Source: Clostridiales bacterium (GTDB lineage Bacteria; Bacillota; Clostridia; Lachnospirales; Lachnospiraceae). Taken from it: 42,778 bases of DNA. Location: positions 1-42,778 of the forward strand of contig JAQXIP010000087.1 in the NCBI GenBank assembly GCA_029007845.1, written 5' to 3'. The notes under the pieces are model-generated. The model was not told the DNA's origin and did not search any database. It saw nothing but the letters and a program-made list of their open reading frames with translations. Below are positions 1-33,290 of this stretch, in pieces (position 1 is the first letter of the stretch; each line of letters begins with the position of its first letter). A program made the position numbers and the translations under genes.

Positions 1-227
1 CGTGTCAACTGCCGTGCCCTCTTTCCGGCACAGCTGATTCCCATACGGGACAGGATTTTTCGTGTTCCCGGATGAACCGGATTACCGATTTCTTCGGTGC
101 TGGTTGCAGCGGAAGCAATCTGGAACTTATCAGACAGTCCCCGTTTCTCTATCATATCTTTCATAATATATTCTGCCATGGGAGAGCGGCAGATGTTGCC
201 GTGGCAGATGAAAAGTATCTTTATCAT
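1..227 (-). CDS. Low molecular weight protein tyrosine phosphatase, N-terminal part (runs off the window)
   Basis: Reading leftward from the ATG at 227 the protein begins MIKILFICHGNICRSPMAEY. This carries the CxGNxCRSP phosphate-binding loop of the LMW-PTP/arsenate reductase fold, with the nucleophilic Cys at residue 8 and the P-loop Arg at residue 14. About 75 residues are present and the frame is still open at base 1, so the catalytic Asp near the C-terminus is outside the window. The family dephosphorylates tyrosine (sometimes arginine) in cytosolic proteins; the substrate here is unknown. An AGGAGG lies about 17 bases upstream of the ATG, which is long, but an in-frame stop just upstream rules out an earlier ATG. 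Confidence 0.85.
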   Translation of the reverse strand, partial: MIKILFICHGNICRSPMAEYIMKDMIEKRGLSDKFQIASAATSTEEIGNPVHPGTRKILSRMGISCAGKRARQLT

Positions 228-16309: not shown

Positions 16310-16338
16310 TTGACAAATTAATGGACGGGCTGTATAAT
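16310..16338 (+). promoter_or_regulatory. Consensus sigma-A promoter with A/T-rich UP-like region
   Basis: TTGACA (16310-16315), 17-base spacer, TATAAT (16333-16338): both hexamers are perfect. About 45 bases upstream are almost pure A/T. No gene of normal size follows for 770 bases, so the product is presumably an RNA. Confidence 0.9.
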
Positions 16339-16358
16339 CAATTCATAAGTTACAGATA

Positions 16359-16452
16359 GGGAGGAGGAGATTCCAATGCAGACATAAGGAACCCTTTCAG
16401 CGGAGGTTAGCTGGAAAGATTACGGGAGGAGGAGATTCCGATGCACACATAA
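16359..16452 (+). repeat. Tandem repeat of a Shine-Dalgarno plus three-codon frame
   Basis: GGGAGGAGGAGATTCC occurs at 16359-16374 and 16424-16439, exactly 65 bases apart. The first is followed by A then ATG CAG ACA TAA (16376-16387); the second by G then ATG CAC ACA TAA (16441-16452). Both are ideally placed for ribosome binding on a start codon followed by two codons and a stop. Confidence 0.75.
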
Positions 16453-16741
16453 GAGAATCGCATTTTACGAGAACGGTATGATGCGAGGATGCCAGAGAAC
16501 GGGGGAAGCCTTCAGAGAAAAGAAGGCGATAATAAAAAATTTACATAGATGCAGTGAGGTATCGAAGTATTTGGTTTATTTCGCTTGACAGGGAAGCAGT
16601 ATTCCACCGTCAGAACACATCTGGACAAACCGTAACAGTGGACGGATCGGTGAGCATGGATGTGAAAAATCTAAGAATAGGAGGTACGGACCACCAGAAA
16701 CTTAAGTTCGTGAAGATTACAAATGAATTATGAAAAATGTG

Positions 16742-16805
16742 AGAAAAGGCGTTGACCATCTTGTGACAGTGGGGTTACATATTTGGTTAGCGCTTTTTCT
16801 GTAAC
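16742..16805 (+). terminator. Probable 3' end of the structured RNA
   Basis: AGAAAAGGCG (16742-16751) pairs with CGCTTTTTCT (16791-16800) with one G-U, closing a 39-base loop that can pair further. The T run is inside the 3' arm, so a processed or Rho-independent end is plausible but not certain. Confidence 0.45.
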
Positions 16806-17016
16806 TGATCAGCCGTGATGAACGCACAGCCGCCGGAAGCACGCAGAATATCAGGCACGATGAAATATCCCTTTGAACACGTCGGCACTTGGTTTTGCGT
16901 TTTTTGCAAAACCTTAGTACCGCTACGTGTTCAATGGAGCGAAAGCGGGTATTTCATCGTGCCTGATATTCTGCATGCTTTCAGCGGCTGTGCGCTCGTT
17001 ACGGCTGAACTGCTGC
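16801..17016. repeat. Dispersed long palindrome, copy B (core inverted relative to A, C and D)
   Basis: 216 bases, the same length as copy A. The left arm starts GTAACTGATCAGCCGTGATG and is mirrored by the right end CGTTACGGCTGAACTGCTGC. Inner arms GGCACGATGAAATA / TATTTCATCGTGCC pair exactly. The core carries CGTCGGCACTTGGTTTTGCG and GCAAAACCTTAGTACCGC. A 76-residue frame can be read through it, but it is conserved only because the repeat is. Confidence 0.9.
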
Positions 17017-17107: not shown

Positions 17108-18502
17108 ATGAATCATGAACAACAAAGCGAAAACATGATGGGATATCTTCCAATTCCGGTGCTTTTGATGAAGGTTTCCCTGCCAATGATCTTATCTATG
17201 CTGGTTCAGGCACTGTATAATGTCGTAGACAGTATTTTTGTGTCGAGGATAAATGCAGATGCGTTTGCCGCACTGAACCTGATGTTTCCGATCCAGACGC
17301 TGATGATTGCAGCAGGTGCTGGTACCGGAGTAGGAATCAATGCATTGCTTTCAAAGAGTCTGGGAGAAAAAAAGTTTAAGCAGGCAAATGAGGCGGCGAA
17401 GAACGGTATTTTTCTTGCTATATGTTCCTATCTTTTATTCCTTTTGATTGGAGCTTTCGGAAGCCACCTATATTTTGAAGGTATGCATGTAAATGCGGAA
17501 ACGGTATCGAATGGTACAATTTATATGCGGATTGTGACTATGGGATCATTCGGATTATTTATCCAGATGGTTATGGAACGCCTGCTTCAGTCCACCGGAC
17601 TGTCAATATACAGTATGATTACGCAGATGCTGGGAGCGTTTATTAATCTGATACTTGATCCGGTTTTGATTTTCGGGGTATTTGGTCTGCCGGGAATGGG
17701 AGCGGCAGGAGCCGCCATTGCTACCATTACCGGACAAATCATTGCGGCAATACTTGCTGTGTACTTTAATATTCATAAAAATAAAGAACTGGCAATTGGA
17801 ATGAAGGGCTTTCGACCAAATAAACAAATTATTGGAAAAATCTACTCGGTAGGCATTCCGGCCATTTTTATGCAGGCAATCGGATCAATTATGAATTTTG
17901 GAATGAACCAGATTCTCCTTATGGTAGATGCTACACAGGTGGGGGTAAATGTGTTCGGGGCATATTTTAAATTAAACAGCCTCATTTTCATGCCGGTATT
18001 TGGATTAAATAATGGCATGATTCCAATTCTTGCCTATAATTATGGAGCACGAAAGAGGAAACGGATCATTGATACAGTCAAATATTCCTTATTAATTGCA
18101 TTTTGTTTTATGGTAATTGGAATGGGAATGTTTCTTGGAATTCCAGGAAAACTGCTTTCATTTTTTGATGCGACAGAAGAAATGGCTGCCATGGGAGTAC
18201 CGGCATTTCGTATTATTTGTATCAGTTTTCTGTTTGCCGGGTTCTGTATTGTCCTTCTGTCCGTGTTTCAGGCATTTGGATCAGGCATGCTGAGTCTGAT
18301 TGTATCCGTGTCAAGACAGCTTCTGGTGCTGCTTCCGGTTGCCTATGTATTTGCGGTTACGATGGGCATTGATGCAGTCTGGTGGTCATTTCCAATTGCG
18401 GAGATCGCATCTATCTCGCTGTCTTTGATTTTTTACCGTCATTTGTACCGCACAAAGATTGCTCCGCTAGAGGATGAAAAGCACGAAACAGCGAGTGAAT
18501 AG
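17108..18502 (+). CDS. MATE-family multidrug/cation efflux transporter
   Basis: 464 residues and about twelve membrane spans in two halves. PVLLMKVSLPMILSMLVQAL at residues 17-36, then YNVVDSIFVSRINADAFAAL, is the typical MATE opening, and GAGTGVGINALLSKSLGEKK is the characteristic loop after the second span. PVLIFGVFGLPGMGAAGAA and NNGMIPILAYNYGARKRKR mark the ends of later spans. It uses an ion gradient to export organic cations or metabolites; the substrate is unknown. AAAGGAG lies 11 bases before the ATG. It ends 16 bases before the methyltransferase/MTHFR gene and probably shares its transcript. Confidence 0.9.
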   Translation: MNHEQQSENMMGYLPIPVLLMKVSLPMILSMLVQALYNVVDSIFVSRINADAFAALNLMFPIQTLMIAAGAGTGVGINALLSKSLGEKKFKQANEAAKNGIFLAICSYLLFLLIGAFGSHLYFEGMHVNAETVSNGTIYMRIVTMGSFGLFIQMVMERLLQSTGLSIYSMITQMLGAFINLILDPVLIFGVFGLPGMGAAGAAIATITGQIIAAILAVYFNIHKNKELAIGMKGFRPNKQIIGKIYSVGIPAIFMQAIGSIMNFGMNQILLMVDATQVGVNVFGAYFKLNSLIFMPVFGLNNGMIPILAYNYGARKRKRIIDTVKYSLLIAFCFMVIGMGMFLGIPGKLLSFFDATEEMAAMGVPAFRIICISFLFAGFCIVLLSVFQAFGSGMLSLIVSVSRQLLVLLPVAYVFAVTMGIDAVWWSFPIAEIASISLSLIFYRHLYRTKIAPLEDEKHETASE

Positions 18503-18518
18503 AGGAAGAGAGGCAGAT

Positions 18519-20330
18519 ATGAAGAACAGAATGGATTTTTGGAAACAGCAGCGCCTGTCAGACGGGGCTATGGGAACTTATTTTGCAAAGAAGTATCCGG
18601 ATTGCCGGGAAATATCGGAATGGGCAAACCTGCATGCCCCGGAGAAAATCTGCAGCATTCATCAGGAATACATCAATGCGGGGGCGAATCTGATCCGCAC
18701 CAATACCTTTGCAGCCCACCAAAAGGGAATGGGCATTACAAAAGAAGAGCAGAAAGCTGTGGTGGAAGCTGCAGTCCGGATTGCAAAGGAGGCAGTAAAA
18801 GCCAGTGGAAAAGAAGTGCTGATTGCCGGGGATATTGGTCCAATTACAGAGATGAGTGAGGAGACATCTGTAGAACGAAAAGAGGATTATATCGTTTTAT
18901 GTGATGTGTTTCTAGATGCAGAACTGCCTGTCATTCTGATGGAAACATTTGGTGATACGAAGGAACCGTTAGAGGTTGCAGAGTATATTAAACAGAGGAA
19001 TCAGGAGACATTGGTGTTTGTTGACTTCTGCGTGAATATGAATGGCAATTCTTCCAGAGGAATCTCTGCCCAGCGGCTGTTTGAGGAAGTGGGACGTTCT
19101 ACATATGTAGACGGAGTCGGGCTGAACTGCGGAGTCGGTTCCGGGCATATGATTCCTTTATTAGACGAAGTTCAGTTCCCAGAGGGGAAAATCAGTATTG
19201 TGATGCCAAATGCCGGGTATCCGGAGCAGATAAAAAACCGGATGGTTTTCTTAGATAACGCTGAATATTTTACTGATAACATGAAGAGAATTGCAGAAAA
19301 AGGGGTCTCTTTAATCGGAGCCTGCTGTGGCTCCACACCGGTCTATATTGAGAAGCTGGCGGGAAAACTATCGACAAAGGAAAGAAAGCAGAATATTCTT
19401 GTGGCAGCGGAAGTACCGGGCGAGACTGGGGAAAAAGCAGAAGCATCCGGGCAGACAGGGTCTTATGAAAAACCTCTTTTTATGCAGAAATTAGAGCGTG
19501 GCGAGAAGGTAATTGCTGTGGAGCTTGATCCGCCTTATGATGGCAATGTCGATAAGGTGCTCTCTTGTGCGAAAGAGCTAAAAAAACGCCAGATTGATAT
19601 TATAACCATGGCAGATTCTCCTATGGGAAGAAGCCGGGCGGATTCGGTGCTGACAAGCCTTCGGTTAAACAAGGAAACAGGAATGATGATGATGCCTCAT
19701 CTTTGCTGCCGGGATAAAAATATGATCGCCATGCGTTCTGTGTTACTGGGAATTCATATGAATGGGCTGCGCAACCTGCTGATCGTAACGGGCGATCCGG
19801 TTCCGGGGGATACAAGGGCTACCACAACCGGAGTATTTGATTATAATTCCATCCAGCTGATGAACTTCGTAAAACAGCTGAATGAAGAGCAGTTTGCACA
19901 AGATCCCCTGTATTATGGCGGAGCGCTGAATTACGGAATTGGATTTGTAGAGAGACAGGCAGAACGGATGCAGAAAAAGATGGAGGCAGGTGCTTCTTAT
20001 TTTCTTACCCAGCCGATTTTCTCGGATGAAGATATCAAACGGGTGGAGAGGCTGAAAGATCTGACAGGAGCAAAGATCTTATGTGGCATTATGCCGTTAG
20101 TCAGTTACCGGAATGCTTATTTTATCAAACATGAAATGACTGGTATCCGGGTGCCGGATGAAATTATGGCGCGTTATCGGGAGGATATGAGCCGGGAGGC
20201 AGGAGAAGAGACCGGAACGGCCATAGCAGCGGAACTGATGAAAAAGATGGATTCCTTTGCAGACGGATACTATTTCATGCTGCCTTTTAACCGGGTAAGT
20301 ATTATGGAAAGACTGGAGGGTTACCGATGA
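18519..20330 (+). CDS. Bifunctional homocysteine S-methyltransferase / methylenetetrahydrofolate reductase
   Basis: 603 residues. Residues 1-285 form a homocysteine methyltransferase barrel: LSDGAMGTYF, IRTNTFAA, DIGPITEMSEETS, and the zinc cysteines in GLNCGVG and GACCGS. Residues from about 320 are a MetF domain: VIAVELDPPYDGNVDKV, DIITMADSP, LIVTGDPVP, YYGGALNYGIGF, GASYFLTQPIFSDED. The same fusion occurs in Bacillus YitJ. It makes methyl-THF and may transfer the methyl group to homocysteine. ATG 18519 follows GAGGAAGAGAGG; a longer frame starts inside the MATE gene. It overlaps metH by 4 bases. Confidence 0.93.
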   Translation: MKNRMDFWKQQRLSDGAMGTYFAKKYPDCREISEWANLHAPEKICSIHQEYINAGANLIRTNTFAAHQKGMGITKEEQKAVVEAAVRIAKEAVKASGKEVLIAGDIGPITEMSEETSVERKEDYIVLCDVFLDAELPVILMETFGDTKEPLEVAEYIKQRNQETLVFVDFCVNMNGNSSRGISAQRLFEEVGRSTYVDGVGLNCGVGSGHMIPLLDEVQFPEGKISIVMPNAGYPEQIKNRMVFLDNAEYFTDNMKRIAEKGVSLIGACCGSTPVYIEKLAGKLSTKERKQNILVAAEVPGETGEKAEASGQTGSYEKPLFMQKLERGEKVIAVELDPPYDGNVDKVLSCAKELKKRQIDIITMADSPMGRSRADSVLTSLRLNKETGMMMMPHLCCRDKNMIAMRSVLLGIHMNGLRNLLIVTGDPVPGDTRATTTGVFDYNSIQLMNFVKQLNEEQFAQDPLYYGGALNYGIGFVERQAERMQKKMEAGASYFLTQPIFSDEDIKRVERLKDLTGAKILCGIMPLVSYRNAYFIKHEMTGIRVPDEIMARYREDMSREAGEETGTAIAAELMKKMDSFADGYYFMLPFNRVSIMERLEGYR

Positions 20331-32676: not shown

Positions 32677-32775
32677 ATAATCCCCTCCCCTGAAGATAGC
32701 AATGGATGTTCCTATTGCTATTATAGATTTTTGTCCTACAGGTGTCAACCAGCCATCAGGGAGCAAAGAAGAGTA

Positions 32776-32989: not shown

Positions 32990-33290
32990 GGAACAGGCGA
33001 TGATAAGGAGGAGTACATACATATCAATGGCAAAGAGAGAAGATGGCTGGTGCGAATCTTCGCGGCGAGTGTATGGAAGTAGCCTTTGAGCTTTGGACTG
33101 AACAGGATCCGGTGGATTTTTAGTAGGCTCCAACGTAATTCCCACGTTATCGGGAAAAAGCATCGTATCGTTTCATATTGGATACTGTGCTGGCAGAGTG
33201 CAGGAGAGATCCTGAATGCAGGTGGTAACACGGACTTTAGAGTGGTTCGCCCTGGGCAGATTTATGTATCTGTTCGGGGCGTTTTTTGGT
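32990..33290 (+). promoter_or_regulatory. T-box leader, probable valine specifier
   Basis: The T-box core AGGTGGTAACACGG (33220-33233) is clear and is followed by a terminator. In stem I, AGTA at the 5' side and GAA at the 3' side of a CATACA/TGTATG helix form the expected S-turn. The bases after GAA read GTA G, suggesting a GUA (Val) specifier; the lower helix would be AAGG/CCTT. AGAGAG and GCTGGTGCGA fit the rest of stem I. Uncharged tRNA would pair and prevent termination, raising leuB-ilvD-ilvB when valine is short. The specifier call is less certain than the T-box itself. Confidence 0.85.
33248..33287 (+). terminator. T-box terminator
   Basis: CGCCC...CAGAT (33248-33261) pairs with ATCTG...GGGCG (33268-33281), followed by TTTTTT. 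The 5' arm lies just after the antiterminator T-box sequence. Confidence 0.85.

Follow-up and report, generated by a model that had tools for sequence, protein, structure and literature searches.

What does a perfect promoter transcribe when no normal gene follows it? The question is raised by a locus within 42,778 nt of DNA from a Clostridiales bacterium of the Lachnospiraceae (the window, meaning here the whole stretch that was analysed). The original prediction had placed in it a stand-alone, strongly promoted non-coding RNA of about 450 nt, divergent from glyA, which might belong to a described class or be new, and which might sequester CsrA. We have asked which parts of this proposal stand, whether the RNA has relatives, and what its conserved parts suggest about function.

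The transcript and its surroundings

The promoter is an exact sigma-70-type match preceded by A/T-rich DNA, just as had been described. By chance, 0.01 matches of 12/12 with a 17-nt spacer would be expected in the window; the one observed is the sole 12/12 match between 15800 and 17400. The RNA is predicted from these signals to start near 16345 and to end after a terminator-like stem. The minimum free energy of 16345-16805 is -125.3 kcal/mol, a value that none of 100 dinucleotide shuffles reached (z -4.65); the body without the 3' terminal helix gives a z of about -2.8. Four clear hairpins are predicted, among them the expected 3' closing stem (Table 1). A 12-nt pairing of the two ends, 16345-16356 with 16798-16809, is also possible, its 3' arm extending beyond the likely termination point. 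We found no convincing long open reading frame in the RNA, the longest being 59 aa from a GTG and without a Pfam match, which agrees with the earlier reading that no useful frame is present.

Table 1. Features of the locus, in window coordinates.
Feature	Positions	Strand	Basis and remarks
Predicted sigma-70-type promoter	16310-16338	+	TTGACA-17-TATAAT; same promoter type upstream of the core in relatives (see text)
Predicted RNA, about 455-460 nt	16345-16803	+	Promoter and terminator positions; fold z -4.65
Minigene module 1, GGGAGGAGGAGAUUCCA-AUG-CAG-ACA-UAA-G	16359-16388	+	Repeat; ORF 16376-16387, MQT; predicted 16S-tail pairing -20 kcal/mol
Hairpin with GGAGG in its loop	16394-16417	+	Fold prediction; GGAGG at 16402-16406, predicted unpaired 0.99
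Minigene module 2, GGGAGGAGGAGAUUCCG-AUG-CAC-ACA-UAA-G	16424-16453	+	Repeat, 65 nt after module 1; ORF 16441-16452, MHT
Hairpin CGCAUUUUACGAGAACGGUAUGAUGCG	16459-16485	+	Fold prediction; no match to family hairpin model R2
Hairpin GCCUUC...GAAGGC	16508-16528	+	Fold prediction
Family core, perfect Shine-Dalgarno at start-codon spacing	16665-16708	+	CCA (16694-16696) in start-codon place; in-frame UAA 16703-16705
3' terminator-like hairpin AGAAAAGGCGUUGACC...GGUUAGCGCUUUUUCU	16742-16800	+	Fold and sequence
Dispersed hairpin repeat element, MITE-like	16809-17010		Adjoins the RNA 3' end; probably outside the RNA

The left neighbour is indeed glyA (SHMT), divergent from the RNA, and the right neighbour is a MATE exporter gene on the same strand as the RNA. 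Between the RNA and the MATE gene sits a hairpin-forming repeat of 202 nt with 62-bp arms, which is present about 40 times in the 2.28-Mb genome (88-100% identity). The end of the MATE gene is overlapped by the start of a 618-aa ORF (18474-20330) that fuses homocysteine S-methyltransferase and MTHFR domains. Elsewhere in the window, a second perfect TTGACA-17-TATAAT promoter is present on the minus strand (32720-32748), directed away from a T-box leader at 32991-33257.

A new RNA family in the Lachnospiraceae

Rfam 15 gave no RNA match at gathering score at 16310-16809, and in permissive E-value mode the window RNA gave chance matches only (E>=0.9, far below the cut-offs). No match was obtained in 12 relatives, nor in 8 more. 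The suggested membership in raiA or Clostridiales-1 is thereby rejected, as are OLE, ROOL, GOLLD, 6S, RNase P and tmRNA, none of which matched by its Rfam 15 covariance model. The raiA motif RNA, ModT, resembles the present family as an abundant-type stand-alone Firmicutes RNA with variable gene neighbours (PMC11706538); it differs in having a compact conserved fold without minigenes, and Rfam contains nothing that matches the family RNA in sequence or structure. Neither the core sequence nor the loop sequence described below occurs in any open-access paper searched, we found no description of a Lachnospiraceae RNA of such kind in the literature, and the main text of two large structured-RNA surveys does not mention Lachnospiraceae.

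Lachnospiraceae are among the commonest gut anaerobes. When the window RNA was compared by BLAST with one genome per Lachnospiraceae genus, the same 35-45 nt were matched in 56 of 299 genomes. The conserved stretch is a 44-nt core, AAUCUAAGnAAAGGAGGUACGGACCACC...UAAG in the window, with the shared consensus AAUCUAAGnAAAGGAGGUACGGACCACC...AAACnUAAG. A 54-column core profile detects it at E<1e-3 in 118 of the 299 genera, about 40% of those sampled, yet no Rfam 15 family exists; this count treats genera as independent, ignoring deeper relatedness, and the negative genera may contain diverged members that the profile misses, like the core-less RNAs found by a second model (below). The window core AGGAGGUACGGACCACC at 16679-16695 scores E 1.1e-13 with profile R1, of which the window is one of the training sequences; the independent BLAST matches agree. 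Seventeen nt of the core are nearly invariant, in BLAST-selected loci too; in pattern-selected loci the core is invariant by construction, and the BLAST-selected loci are almost as invariant. Outside the Lachnospiraceae, nothing clearly above chance was found in 291 genomes across Clostridia (best E 5e-4 per genome), and a core-pattern scan of 85,000 species genomes gave at least 119 stretches, nearly all from Lachnospiraceae among the matches listed. A phage origin was considered and rejected, the pattern occurring in only 16 of 2.9 million viral contigs, by rough estimate near chance plus prophage edges. We also rejected mimicry of many mRNA leaders, since module matches cluster at the RNA locus and scattered matches stay at control level.

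A promoter of the form TTGAC-16..18-TAnnnT lies within 500 nt upstream of the core in all 136 non-redundant loci (against 2.9% of random and 3.0% of shuffled stretches), and in 54 of the 136 it is a 12/12 match with a 17-nt spacer. The downstream genes are divided 58 to 58 by strand and their identity varies between clades; no conserved neighbouring gene that might be a partner was found among the family loci. With its own promoter, and with downstream genes on both strands equally, the family RNA is an autonomous gene and unlikely to be a leader, in support of the claim of a stand-alone, strongly promoted RNA. From these comparisons, the window RNA is a member of a new, uncatalogued Lachnospiraceae RNA family, the second of the two options that had been offered for it.

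Several loci have peculiarities of their own. The RNA gene occurs as tandem double copies in L262 (about 495 nt apart), L058 (about 850 nt) and L196 (about 1.7 kb). The RNAs of L098 and L202 contain long A-rich short tandem repeats (AAGAAAC; AAAAGATC) next to masked stretches. In L004, L009, L021, L027 and L031 an extra hairpin, CGUUUAG...CUAAAC, with an apparently variable stem, follows right after the core and is itself followed by AUAGGA or ACAGGA.

Modules, minigenes and a second hairpin

Besides the core, the original prediction had overlooked two 30-nt repeats in the window RNA, which are 93% identical. Each consists of an ideal Shine-Dalgarno sequence followed by AUG-X-X-stop, in DNA form GGGAGGAGGAGATTCC-(A/G)-ATG-CA(G/C)-ACA-TAA-G. 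The RNA is therefore non-coding in that it carries no normal gene, but not purely so, because start- and stop-delimited minigenes with strong Shine-Dalgarno sequences are present. The same design recurs in family transcripts as a repeated unit, GG(A)GGU-NNNG(A/U)CC-(A/G), after which comes either CCN or a start codon. A locus has 1-8 such tandem units, about 50-65 nt apart in arrays, the number of eight being reached in Anaerobutyricum hallii (L042) and in L188. The minigenes that follow comprise 2-10 codons. Internal ones are often AUG-X-X-UAA and vary between species (MRT, MKS, MKT, MDR and MYT, alongside MQT and MHT in the window), many modules having ACN as the last codon; one relative, L196, has four GACC-(A/G)-AUG-UAC-ACA-UAA modules comparable to window module 2. 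The predicted duplexes of modules with the 16S tail range from -13 to -20 kcal/mol (-13 to -15 for the core unit), against -2 to -5 for their self-folds.

At 114 of 144 loci the RNA ends with a short ORF (12 codons or fewer) that is led by a Shine-Dalgarno sequence and whose stop touches the terminator stem, with Shine-Dalgarno sequence, ORF and terminator being themselves search criteria. A test at a fixed position is less conditioned by the search: of 82 non-redundant sites, 53 have a stop as the sixth codon (18 UAA, 18 UGA and 17 UAG), while the control frames have 1 and 0 stops; the binomial p of this excess is about 1e-49 with relatedness ignored. UG of the terminal start is preceded by A, U or G, with C virtually absent from this place. 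Translation signals should give such a pattern, and a loop or spacer should not; judged by it, the starts and stops of the terminal minigenes are under selection. In the window RNA, a search for a terminal minigene returned only a UUG-UGA start-stop within the 3' hairpin.

The core is a module without a start codon, located in the window about 335 nt from the RNA start. In 126 of 198 modules with CCN, an in-frame UAA is retained at an unchanged offset. The core GGAGG is predicted to be mostly paired, with a lower openness (0.25) than the remaining Gs of the RNA (0.45). In the window, a self-hairpin GG-A-GGU-ACGG-ACC-A-CC is predicted at -4.3 kcal/mol, compared with -13.4 kcal/mol for pairing with the 16S tail. 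In non-core modules no covariation is seen at the third pair of this mini-hairpin (58 versus 56.8 and 41 versus 43.7 expected), and a closing mini-hairpin as a conserved structure was rejected, covariation giving it no support outside the invariant core. It may be that the core binds 30S as a closed or start-less site, or that it is bound by a protein.

A second element, the R2 hairpin, carries GACGAGAAAG at its tip in 58 of the 141 transcripts examined (41%). Its loop, UGACGAGAAAG, is invariant among members of this type and absent from the other DNA of the same loci (833 kb). In sequences collected by the loop and not by the stem, double-sided changes are seen in 8 of 8 stem pairs (80 cells versus 26 by shuffling), and the covariation score is 0.855, as against 0.251 for shuffled and at most 0.33 for slid versions. 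A hairpin-only model, R2, in which the modules are not used, detected further core-less RNAs that share the promoter and have Shine-Dalgarno minigenes, for example UUG-AAA-UAG in L262 and GGAGGAGAUUCC-AUUG-AAA-AAG-AUG-UAA in L265, the latter close to GGAGGAGAUUCC-A-AUG of the window. This confirms by an independent route that the minigenes are a family feature. In L102, L192, L260, L262 and L263 the UGACGAGAAAG loop caps the terminator hairpin itself.

The R2 hairpin is optional, being present in about 40% of members. The window RNA has no match to the model, and its hairpin at 16459-16485 was rejected as a candidate for the family hairpin. Of the conservation and covariation looked for in relatives, the former is borne out by the core and the latter by the R2 hairpin of other members. 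The window's genus is represented by a single genome.

Possible roles of the RNA

In the explanation that we prefer, and that we consider evenly balanced between right and wrong, the window RNA is a stand-alone, trans-acting RNA whose Shine-Dalgarno modules and minigenes engage ribosomes. From sequence we infer high abundance, ribosome loading and a trans function through ribosome or tRNA occupancy. The strong promoter would yield an abundant RNA; 30S subunits or ribosomes would load on its modules; and the tiny or absent frames would leave them held or recycled without a protein product. The RNA would then soak up or buffer free 30S subunits, initiator tRNA or peptidyl-tRNA, and bound ribosomes would also shield it from RNases as a by-product. 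The broader proposal, that dedicated ribosome-capturing RNAs throughout the Lachnospiraceae set in trans the level of free 30S subunits or of initiator or peptidyl-tRNA, with arrays of perfect ribosome-binding sites before start-less or 2-10-codon frames as their only conserved cargo, is more tentative, and we lean slightly against it.

Occupancy of a minigene Shine-Dalgarno sequence is known to protect mRNA, and minigenes can trap peptidyl-tRNA (PMC8708949). The STAB-SD of cry3A, a Shine-Dalgarno sequence without a translation start, stabilises RNA via 30S binding (PMC4113751). Bacterial minigenes such as phage lambda bar, axe-txe mg2 and the mini-ORFs of the LEE1 and LEE4 leaders are like those of the family in their strong Shine-Dalgarno sequence, start, few codons and a stop that is often UAA, and the last codon of axe-txe mg2, Thr ACU, resembles the ACN of many family modules. 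They occur singly, however, as cis-acting parts of leaders or genes, whereas those of the family are arrayed in tandem on an autonomous RNA that has a promoter and a terminator of its own. The core module likewise resembles STAB-SD as a Shine-Dalgarno sequence without a start codon that may bind 30S; STAB-SD is one copy near an mRNA 5' end, whereas the family modules are repeated, have an invariant GGACCACC suffix and lie in an RNA without a gene. To our knowledge, neither minigenes nor start-less Shine-Dalgarno sequences have been described other than as single elements in cis, and the precedents for each mechanistic step are of that form only. If ribosome capture is correct, a dedicated RNA with up to eight modules would, as far as we know, be the first natural RNA built for ribosome engagement without protein. 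Members are present in the culturable Anaerobutyricum hallii DSM 3353, Roseburia inulinivorans DSM 16841 and Blautia, and the proposal is testable at once.

Three observations speak against ribosome capture: a start codon is missing from the family core, where the GGAGG is predicted to be mostly paired; the UAA kept in CCN modules has no simple explanation in translation; and the window RNA has neither a clear terminal minigene nor the R2 hairpin. An alternative, which the start-less core favours, is that the modules serve stability only, with bound 30S blocking exonucleases in the manner of STAB-SD (PMC4113751) and the real function residing in the structured remainder. Several members do have well-folded bodies (z -3 to -6.5). 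Nevertheless, up to 8 modules are spread along the whole RNA instead of one 5' copy, array-type members are almost devoid of other structure (L013 z -0.2, L128 z -0.17), and GGACCACC is conserved beyond the Shine-Dalgarno sequence, which together make a role in stability alone rather unlikely.

A sponge in which the GGAGGUACGGACCACC module is the repeated binding site of a dedicated protein or small RNA is, in our judgement, less likely again. It would fit the 17 nearly invariant nt, BLAST-selected loci included, the symmetry of the predicted mini-hairpin and the gathering of modules at one place per genome. It is difficult to reconcile with minigene modules that do not have the CCACC part, with a third mini-hairpin pair that does not covary in non-core modules, and with neighbourhoods that offer no conserved partner gene. 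We regard as improbable that the RNA is a micropeptide messenger whose terminal minigene encodes a pentapeptide signal. MDSIV and MDEIV do recur with synonymous changes (GAC/GAU, GAA/GAG, GUU/GUA), but the peptides vary widely (MDNEQ, METDF, MIEISE, MDTVSF), internal minigenes differ by species, and no clear terminal minigene was found in the window RNA.

Sequestration of CsrA, proposed from 18 GGA trinucleotides, now appears very improbable. The count is correct, some GGA lie in loops, and the presence of csrA, for which a check had been suggested, is borne out by three matches in the window genome. However, GGA is not enriched (18 versus a mean of 15.2 in dinucleotide shuffles, 183 of 1000 reaching 18), many modules read ACAGACC or AUAGUCC with no internal GGA, and csrA is not associated with the RNA, occurring in 52 of 118 RNA-positive (44%) and 84 of 153 RNA-negative genera (55%; odds ratio 0.65). 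CsrB/RsmZ-type sponges are similar in being stand-alone RNAs with repeated short purine motifs; they present ANGGA in loops, whereas the family motif is a full ribosome-binding site and over half of its genera are without csrA. A general CsrA-sponge role is thus not supported, while a local one in the window genome is possible. Finally, the RNA can hardly serve the gene that follows it, here the MATE exporter, as a leader or attenuator: the minigene stop abuts the terminator in most members, as in attenuators, and the MATE gene is co-directional with the RNA, but downstream genes across the family are evenly split by strand and differ between clades, and in the window the repeat element separates the RNA from the MATE gene.
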